This document shows, one piece after another, positions 44,383 to 46,138 of a stretch of 64,000 bases of DNA. The stretch comes from Falsirhodobacter deserti. Its GTDB lineage: Bacteria; Pseudomonadota; Alphaproteobacteria; Rhodobacterales; Rhodobacteraceae. The DNA lies in the NCBI RefSeq assembly GCF_004015795.1, contig NZ_ML137218.1, positions 359,548 to 423,547 of the forward strand, written 5' to 3'. Within the stretch, counting starts at the first letter, position 1, and each line of letters opens with the position of its first letter. The notes beneath the pieces were generated by a model. That model did not search any database, was not told the origin of the DNA, and saw nothing but the letters and a program-made list of their open reading frames with translations. The position numbers and the translations under genes are program-made.

Positions 44383-45954
44383 TCAGCCGGCGTCGCGGTA
44401 GCTTACGGCCTTCGTGTCGTGCCCCGGCGCCGTTTTCTGGCGGCGCAGGATCAGCCGGTTCAGCGCGTTCACATAAGCGCGGGCCGAAGCGACGACGGTA
44501 TCGGTGTCGGCAGCATGGCCGGTCGCGATCTTTCCGTCCTCCTCCAGCCGGACGGTGACGGTGGCCTGCGCATCGGTGCCTTCGGTGATCGCCTGCACCT
44601 GATACAGCGCCAGCGTGGCGGTGTGATCCACCAGCATGTTCACCGCGTTGAAGGCCGCATCCACCGGGCCGTCGCCCGTGGCTTCCGCGGTCTTGTCCTC
44701 GCCATCGACGGTCAGCGTCAGCTGCGCCTCCTGCGGGCCCTCGGTGCCGCAAACCACGCGCAGGCGCTTGATCTGCAGCCCGTCATAGGCGGCCTGCGTG
44801 CCGGCTTCCTGCACCAGCGCCAGCAGATCCTCGTCGTAGATCTCTTTCTTGCGGTCGGCCAGCGCCTTGAAACGTACGAAGATATCGGCCAGCTGGTTGT
44901 CGGCAACCTCGTATCCCAGATCCTTCAGCTTGGACCGCAGCGCCGCGCGGCCCGAATGCTTTCCCATCACGAGCGAGGTTTCCGTCAGGCCCACATCGGC
45001 GGGGCGCATGATCTCGAACGTTTCGGCGTTCTTCAGCATGCCGTCCTGATGGATGCCGGATTCATGGGCAAACGCGTTCTTGCCAACGATGGCCTTGTTG
45101 AACTGGACGGGGAATCCGGAAACCGTGGCAACCTTGCGGCTGATCGCGGTCAGCCGTGTCGAATCCACGCCGGTGCGATAGGGCATGATGTCATTGCGCA
45201 CCTTCAGCGCCATCACGACCTCTTCCAGCGCGGTGTTGCCCGCACGCTCACCCAGGCCATTGATGGTGCATTCGATCTGGCGCGCCCCCGCTTCGACAGC
45301 GGCAAGAGAGTTGGCCGTCGCCATGCCCAGATCGTTGTGGCAGTGGGTGGCGAAGATAATCTCGTCCGCACCCGGCACGCGTTCCAGCAGCATGCGGATC
45401 AGGTCTGCCGATTCTCGCGGCGCGGTATAGCCGACGGTATCAGGGATGTTGATCGTGGTGGCCCCGGCCTTGATCGCGATCTCTACCACGCGGCAGAGAT
45501 AGTCGTGTTCCGTGCGCGTTGCATCCATGGGTGACCATTGCACGTTGTCGCACAGGTTGCGGGCATGGGTCACGGTATCGTGGATCCTCTCTGCCATCTG
45601 GTCCTTGTCCAGGTTGGGAATGGCGCGGTGCAGCGGAGAGGTGCCGATGAAGGTGTGGATGCGCGGACGGGCCGCATGCTTCACAGCTTCCCAGCAGCGG
45701 TCGATATCCTTGAAGTTCGCGCGCGACAGGCCGCAGATGACCGAGTTCTTCGATTGCTTGGCAATGGCCGAAACCGCCTCGAAGTCGCCTTCCGAGGCGA
45801 TGGGGAAACCGGCCTCGATGATGTCCACGCCCATCTCGTCCAGCATGGCGGCGATGTCCAGCTTTTCGGCATGGGTCATCGTGGCGCCGGGCGATTGTTC
45901 GCCATCGCGCAGGGTGGTGTCGAAAATGAAAACGCGGTCCTGGGTATTCGTCAT
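44383..45954 (-). CDS. leuA: 2-isopropylmalate synthase
   Basis: 523 residues; first committed step of leucine synthesis, condensing acetyl-CoA with 2-oxoisovalerate. Catalytic TIM barrel (RVFIFDTTLRDGEQSPGAT; metal HxH in FATHCHNDLGMATANS; GNTALEEVVMAL) and a C-terminal leucine-binding allosteric domain from about residue 390 to 510 (RLRVVCGTEGPQEAQLTL). Ribosome site GAAGGAAG. Transcribed alone, with a leader peptide gene and alternative hairpins upstream. Confidence 0.97.
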   Translation of the reverse strand: MTNTQDRVFIFDTTLRDGEQSPGATMTHAEKLDIAAMLDEMGVDIIEAGFPIASEGDFEAVSAIAKQSKNSVICGLSRANFKDIDRCWEAVKHAARPRIHTFIGTSPLHRAIPNLDKDQMAERIHDTVTHARNLCDNVQWSPMDATRTEHDYLCRVVEIAIKAGATTINIPDTVGYTAPRESADLIRMLLERVPGADEIIFATHCHNDLGMATANSLAAVEAGARQIECTINGLGERAGNTALEEVVMALKVRNDIMPYRTGVDSTRLTAISRKVATVSGFPVQFNKAIVGKNAFAHESGIHQDGMLKNAETFEIMRPADVGLTETSLVMGKHSGRAALRSKLKDLGYEVADNQLADIFVRFKALADRKKEIYDEDLLALVQEAGTQAAYDGLQIKRLRVVCGTEGPQEAQLTLTVDGEDKTAEATGDGPVDAAFNAVNMLVDHTATLALYQVQAITEGTDAQATVTVRLEEDGKIATGHAADTDTVVASARAYVNALNRLILRRQKTAPGHDTKAVSYRDAG

Positions 45955-45970
45955 GTGCTTCTTCCTTCTT

Positions 45971-46029
45971 GAGCGTTGGGCGGGCGCTGGTCACCTCTGA
46001 GCGGTCGCGCCCAAGGGCACGCTCAGAGG
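45971..46029 (-). promoter_or_regulatory. leuA attenuator: two mutually exclusive hairpins
   Basis: Hairpin A pairs CCTCTGAGCG (46029-46020) with CGCTCAGAGG (46003-45994), ten perfect base pairs, and its 5' arm contains the leader-peptide stop codon. Alternative B pairs GAGCG (46024-46020) with a second CGCTC (45975-45971) and TTGGGCG (46014-46008) with CGCCCAA (45982-45976). B takes the 5' arm of A and ends directly before the leuA ribosome site. No T tract follows either hairpin, so control may be at translation or Rho-dependent. Confidence 0.75.
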
Positions 46030-46103
46030 CGCGTAAGAAGAAGAAGGCTGCGGGTGCAGCAGGGGGCGACGCCCCGAAGGATGATATGTTGGTCCCGTAC
46101 CAT
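46023..46103 (-). CDS. leuL: leuA leader peptide with leucine codon run
   Basis: 26 codons, beginning ATG GTA CGG and ending with CTRSLLLLTRL. The four adjacent leucines are all CTT, with a fifth leucine (CTC) just before the stop. There is no Shine-Dalgarno sequence; the promoter -10 box ends seven bases before the ATG, so the message probably starts at or next to the AUG. Ribosome stalling at the CTT run when charged tRNA-Leu is scarce would change hairpin choice. The CTT run is also complementary over seven bases to the leuA ribosome-site region. Confidence 0.8.
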   Translation of the reverse strand: MVRDQHIILRGVAPCCTRSLLLLTRL

Positions 46104-46110
46104 GAACCGA

Positions 46111-46138
46111 ACTATAAACGCCGCGGATTGCATGGCAA
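46111..46138 (-). promoter_or_regulatory. leuL-leuA promoter
   Basis: On the minus strand TTGCCA (46133-46138), 16 bases, TATAGT (46111-46116), each matching the sigma-70 consensus at five of six positions. Predicted transcription start is at or one base before the leuL ATG. Confidence 0.7.

Follow-up and report, generated by a model that had tools for sequence, protein, structure and literature searches.

A probable leucine-responsive attenuator of translation upstream of leuA in Falsirhodobacter deserti and other Rhodobacteraceae

Described leader systems and the leuA leader of F. deserti

In translational attenuators of the ermC and cat type, a ribosome stalled in a leader open reading frame (ORF) frees a sequestered ribosome site, the signal being an antibiotic. 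For leucine biosynthesis, the closest described system is the LEU element upstream of actinobacterial leuA, for which a leader peptide with a run of leucine codons, a base stem between leucine codons and the Shine-Dalgarno (SD) sequence, and a pseudoknot have been described (Seliverstov et al., 2005; PMC1262725). In its passages on this element, the same paper favours a protein ligand, cites from others mutations of the Streptomyces coelicolor leuA leader some of whose effect was not consistent with classical attenuation, and concludes that regulation is not influenced by mutations of the leucine codons. The leuA leader LeuL1 of Streptomyces lividans, according to the part of PMC8079986 that deals with it, belongs to a leaderless transcript, contains a leucine run (MRFGLLLLSCRGEGL*) and is not followed by a typical Rho-independent terminator. 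In Sinorhizobium meliloti, trpL (rnTrpL) encodes a leaderless leader peptide and serves as a tryptophan attenuator and as a dual-function sRNA, as summarized in PMC10117765.

The leuA leader of F. deserti and its counterparts in the Rhodobacteraceae (hereafter the family) share features with all of these systems. Like the LEU element as outlined in PMC1262725, they have a leucine-run leader peptide, a base stem of leucine codons and the leuA SD region, and a pseudoknot, and covariance models cross-detect the two; unlike it, they occur in Alphaproteobacteria, go with another LeuA type and can precede a cupin gene. With S. lividans LeuL1, which belongs to a different phylum, they share the leaderless start (predicted here), the leucine run and the missing typical terminator, in so far as these are described in PMC8079986. 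The leaderless leader peptide (again a prediction here) in an alphaproteobacterium is a likeness to trpL of S. meliloti, whose tryptophan codons, unlike the leucine codons of the family element, are not described as an anti-SD strand in the relevant part of PMC10117765. As in the ermC and cat type, a stalled leader ribosome would free a sequestered site, but here the amino-acid sensing codons themselves form the sequestering strand. Searches of open-access literature listed no report of the element in Alphaproteobacteria; subscription papers may contain an earlier prediction. From sequence comparison, the alphaproteobacterial element is classed here as a variant form of the LEU element, a kind that is known but experimentally unsettled.

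The locus (Table 1) lies on the minus strand of the window, i.e., the whole stretch of 64,000 nucleotides that was analysed. The promoter proposed by a sequence-only reading was confirmed on that strand, with its predicted start on the leader ATG and 7 nt between the end of the −10 hexamer and this ATG. The 26-codon ORF with its four CTT codons and a final sense codon CTC held up equally, as did the location of the leader stop TGA within the 5' arm of a perfect 10-bp stem (P1; CCTCTGAGCG/CGCTCAGAGG). The reading had also claimed a complementarity of seven bases between the leucine run and the leuA start region. The complementarity stands, but not its length: in the unconstrained minimum free energy (MFE) fold of the predicted transcript, a helix of 12 pairs with one bulge (P2) joins precisely the four CTT codons to AAGAAGGAAGAAG. 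The window thus contains a base stem joining the leucine run and the leuA SD region, with P1 nested inside it. The second CGCTC copy and the CGCCCAA element invoked for a competing hairpin are present in the window as well, but in relatives it is GCGCCC that recurs and co-varies as the partner of the GGGCGC loop.

Table 1. Features of the leuA leader region (positions in the window)
Feature	Position	Strand	Remarks
sigma70-type promoter	46111..46138	-	TTGCCA (46138-46133), 16 nt, TATAGT (46116-46111); predicted start on leader ATG
Leader ORF, 26 codons, MVRDQHIILRGVAPCCTRSLLLLTRL*, predicted leaderless	46023..46103	-	ATG at 46103
Four CTT leucine codons (46046-46035), P2 5' arm	46035..46046	-	Unconstrained MFE fold, codon pattern in relatives, co-variation
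P1 5' arm, CCTCTGAGCG, contains leader stop TGA	46020..46029	-	Structural comparison
P1 3' arm, CGCTCAGAGG	45994..46003	-	Structural comparison
P3 5' strand GGGCGC, in P1 loop	46007..46012	-	Overlaps inner P1b pairing with TGCC
P3 3' strand GCGCCC (45987-45982)	45982..45987	-	Pseudoknot topology together with P1; swap test z −9.4 (family set)
P2 3' arm, AAGAAGGAAGAAG, purine-rich leuA ribosome-site region	45958..45970	-	End 3 nt before leuA ATG
leuA, 2-isopropylmalate synthase	44383..45954	-	HMGL-like, HCS_D2 and LeuA_dimer domains

Near the 5' end of the leader, the sequence CATATC (His-Ile codons) was observed at leader nucleotides 16-21 (window 46088-46083, minus strand), and CATA begins at nucleotide 16 in 72 of 123 family leaders. 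No clear pairing partner for CATATC was found: the leuA site and the end of the leucine run each gave z −1.9, and the spacer gave z −1.3. Energies computed for the middle of the leader were meaningless, and this comparison was excluded. A mid-leader hairpin was also considered and rejected as weak (mean z −0.69 over 108). In searches of the whole window and twelve relatives, no Rfam family reached its cut-off in the leader, and with relaxed thresholds only CRISPR-DR12 was obtained there (18.6 bits vs. a cut-off of 37).

Distribution of the element and selection on the leader reading frame

A search of 150 family genomes yielded leuA in 149; two loci with a leuA match incomplete at its start (G012 and G141) were left out, and 147 upstream regions entered the analysis. 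The pattern searched for comprised a leader with at least three leucines among its last nine codons and P1 at the stop with at least 8 of 10 pairs. It was parsed in 131 of 146 upstream regions, 122 of which had 10 of 10 P1 pairs; one region (L145) failed the first start motif and 15 more failed the pattern. The covariance model R1, built from 67 of 71 non-redundant family cores (L014, L055, L071, and L143 were dropped), recovered 14 of the remaining 16 (L040 and L134 cut at the 5' end) but not L138 and L146, which places the element in 145 of 147 family leuA upstream regions (131 by pattern and 14 by covariance model). A further 61 genomes of the same family, overlapping the earlier draw, contained exactly one match in 59 cases and none in two. 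Phaeobacter inhibens carries the element (L152, 71.1 bits), and the match in Paracoccus denitrificans is weaker (L151, 23.6 bits).

Beyond the family, R1 matched 18 of 289 genomes in a class-wide draw; 13 of the 18 were out-of-family, and a LeuA motif lay beside the match in 11 of these 13 loci. The class set comprised 98 leuA places, eight of which were left out (G271, G260, G247, G251:C2, G205, G239, G291, and G189); of the 87 class loci outside the family, eight lacked a start motif and 79 were scored. A leader with its stop in a hairpin was present in 49 of these 79 upstream regions from other alphaproteobacterial families, at a score reached by 0.25% of shuffles and with a cut-off chosen after the score table had been seen. 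Since codon −5 is Arg in 26 of the 49 leaders (and Leu in 20), Leu-Arg-Leu is common in other alphaproteobacterial leaders; in many of the loci L183-L269, from other Alphaproteobacteria, this triplet (CTN CGA CTT) takes the place of a leucine run ahead of the stop. A search of 299 Pseudomonadota genomes with the model R2 gave 59 matches, of which 20 came from the family, 38 from the rest of the class and one from beyond the class.

The sequence-only reading had proposed to compare orthologous leaders, and in these the leucine run is kept, codon −4 being Leu in all 131 family leaders. Codon positions 1 and 2 of the run hardly change, whereas position 3 varies freely; codon −6, for example, has entropies of 0.34, 0.29, and 1.75 bits at its first, second and third positions (131 family leaders). 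Leader leucine codons are CTT in 41.5% and CTA in 18.2% of cases, compared with 7.6 and 0.4%, respectively, in 30 of the group's leuA genes. That the leader reading frame is under selection as leucine codons is supported by these comparisons. An in-frame ATG is located 5-9 nt after a TATAAT-like hexamer (at least 5 of 6) in 98 of 131 family leaders, compared with 0 of 129 ATGs in other frames, and the gap between the −10 hexamer and the in-frame ATG peaks at 7-8 nt; the promoter spacing seen in the window therefore recurs in relatives, and it favours a leaderless transcript that would start on the ATG. In the other alphaproteobacterial set, this spacing was found in 0 of 49 leaders.

These observations bear on the view favoured in 2005 for the actinobacterial LEU element, which would make the element the target of a protein and the ORF incidental. 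The P1 sequence is highly conserved, as a protein ligand might demand, and the authors of PMC1262725 held this opinion in their discussion of the element; however, the codon-position pattern and the kept leucine codons indicate a selected frame, and the promoter spacing in the family fits translation of the ORF. For the family, this explanation is thus regarded as very unlikely.

Pairings in the leader and the question of termination

For P1 together with its inner pairs (P1b), 98.9% of the cells in an alignment of 67 sequences were paired, whereas slid controls reached 35-60%. Changes on both sides were present in 8 of 14 pairs, so the covariation that was to be looked for in the hairpin arms does exist as compensatory changes.

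P2 was assessed by exchanging spacers between leaders, in a test that, like the one applied to P3, ignores relatedness and hence retains shared ancestry. The duplexes of family leaders with their own spacers had a mean energy of −12.90 kcal/mol, compared with −10.05 kcal/mol for swapped spacers (z −13.4; 0 of 2000 swaps as good), and in 113 of 131 cases the own pair surpassed the average for partners whose leader clearly differed; a control segment further upstream gave z −1.3. Examples of compensatory changes are provided by L023, L012, and L016. The 49 other alphaproteobacterial leaders gave z −4.5 (own pair better in 35), and 72 loci from the best 80 actinobacterial leuA matches (75 parsed; L274, L305, and L328 dropped) gave z −5.4 (own pair better in 51), but support is weaker in these two sets because the controls there were at z −2.0, not zero. 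Folding with the real spacer produced P2 in 109 of 123 leaders, vs. P2-like pairs in 77 of 123 with a shuffled spacer (one shuffle each). Only 23 of 131 family leaders had a best contiguous P2 helix ending at most 12 nt from the ATG (median over the set 19 nt), so that in most relatives P2 adjoins the SD sequence instead of covering it.

Eight loci (L026, L041, L048, L102, L104, L123, L155, and L158) have a small cupin-domain gene between the element and leuA, an assignment based on PF07883 in L155, the one tested, and on similar N-termini in the other seven. This gene would be co-controlled with leuA. In 8 of 8 loci the leucine run forms a more stable duplex at the start of the cupin gene than at that of leuA, with mean duplex energies of −12.5 kcal/mol for the cupin site, −8.6 kcal/mol for the leuA site and −10.1 kcal/mol for swapped cupin sites; some of the eight leaders resemble one another, and the margins are small in L048 (−12.4 vs. 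−12.2) and L026 (−13.5 vs. −12.5). Judged from these sequences, P2 is a pairing that tracks whichever gene comes first after the element.

P2 might conversely be a mere by-product, CT-rich leucine codons matching purine-rich ribosome sites while only the leader peptide, with an unspecified action, is selected. The considerable energy retained by swapped pairs and the P2-like pairs formed with shuffled spacers would be expected in that case, but not that own pairs surpass all 2000 swaps, that P2 is so frequent with the real spacer, or that the matches follow changed codons, and the by-product explanation is accordingly judged extremely improbable. P3 connects the P1 loop with a downstream GCGCC. 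It is supported by the swap tests for the family (Table 1) and for the 72 loci from the best 80 actinobacterial matches (z −6.5), and unsupported in the 49 other alphaproteobacterial leaders (z −0.9). In topology, P1 and P3 make up a pseudoknot inside the base stem P2.

The T tract that was reported missing after P1 in the window is also missing there in the family: in the 10 nt that follow P1, 0 of 131 leaders have a run of at least four T. Anywhere from P1 to leuA, such a run is present in 8 of 131. A classical terminator was rejected for the family on account of this hairpin without T tract. Within 10 nt of P1, runs of four or five T were found in 4 of 49 wider-class leaders and runs of at least four T in 1 of the 72 loci from the best 80 actinobacterial matches. 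Upstream of leuA in the distant locus L268 (G280), a similar hairpin is followed by eight T, and because of these this relative may use intrinsic termination instead. Classical attenuation in the family would require P1 to act as an intrinsic terminator without the canonical U tract. P1 is strong, GC-rich and positioned at the leader stop, and L268 and the four wider-class leaders show that T runs do occur, but their absence after P1 in the family leaders and near absence in the actinobacterial loci make such a role most improbable.

Termination through Rho would fit the lack of an intrinsic terminator after P1. An untranslated or released leader would then let Rho act before leuA, a ribosome stalled on the leucine codons would block it, and exposure of the Rho site would be set by the pairings; Rho was considered for cys leaders in the pertinent section of PMC1262725. 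Rho-dependent attenuation gives no reason, however, why changes in the leucine codons should be matched by changes at the landing site of the first gene, whichever gene this is, and it appears unlikely, if less so than the other alternatives.

The preferred reading is that the leuA mRNA leader is probably a leucine-responsive translational attenuator in which the sensing leucine codons are at the same time the sequestering strand. That the CTT run might control translation by pairing with the ribosome site of leuA had been guessed from the window, and the co-variation, the cupin-first operons and the absent T tracts lend support to that guess. Transcription would start on the ATG of the leaderless leader, as suggested by the promoter spacing. 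By default, the leucine run would be paired, as P2, with the region where ribosomes land on the first gene downstream, enclosing the hairpin P1 with the leader stop and the pseudoknot-like P3, all of them pairings with comparative support. If leucine is ample, the ribosome would traverse the run, terminate at the TGA and depart, P2 would re-form, and leuA initiation would be low. If leucine is scarce, a ribosome stalled on the run would mask the 5' arm of P2, freeing the landing site, and LeuA would be made. Because the leucine run is complementary to the leuA ribosome site, a ribosome stalled for want of leucine should expose this site. In model folds of the window, the unpaired probability of the SD stretch rose from 0.10 to 0.34-0.40 when the run was blocked by a ribosome, i.e., opening was partial. 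A ribosome at the leader stop opened the stretch equally (0.40), so that, according to the model, the switch would have to depend on ribosome dwell time.

Leucine codons as a possible sensor and lock in two phyla

The part order of the family element was also seen in actinobacterial leuA loci among the best 80 matches. R1, although built from the family only, scored up to 28.0 bits (E 3.3e-4) on the leuA leaders of these 80 matches, where 10 of its 21 hits fell into the expected upstream interval, which makes up 2.4% of the searched bases; background hits scored as high as 23.7 bits, and the hits are not independent by ancestry. Conversely, a search with the model R3 of a subset of 63 alphaproteobacterial loci had its best 21 of 56 rows all at the element (best E 0.0028; two of the 21 from one genome), the rows below these being mixed. 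Eleven 13-nt strings, e.g., CTCCTTAGCCGCC, are common to the alphaproteobacterial elements and those of the best 80 actinobacterial matches. Cross-detection and shared strings may reflect descent, transfer or convergence, and shared constraints could give rise to the last. Differences were noted by eye among the best 80 actinobacterial matches: leaders are roughly 12-15 codons long there, compared with a median of 28 codons in the family, and in most loci the stop is found in the P1 loop instead of in the P1 arm.

Leucine codons such as CUC CUU spell the anti-SD sequence of the 16S rRNA end, and a leucine run could therefore be sensor and lock at once. A tentative generalization, put forward here at somewhat less than even confidence, is that the leucine run combines both roles, that two phyla whose LeuA enzymes differ share one element with its parts in the same order, whether through descent, transfer or convergence, and that the lock follows the first gene.

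The LEU element was left unexplained in 2005 and attributed to a protein, as far as the passages on it in PMC1262725 go. Synonymous codon changes that go along with changes at the landing site of the following gene point to a translational lock read by the ribosome, which is directly testable in easily grown Rhodobacterales. The sensor and lock design suggests why leucine codons in particular would suit it, and with this element the Alphaproteobacteria would gain a widespread leucine control.
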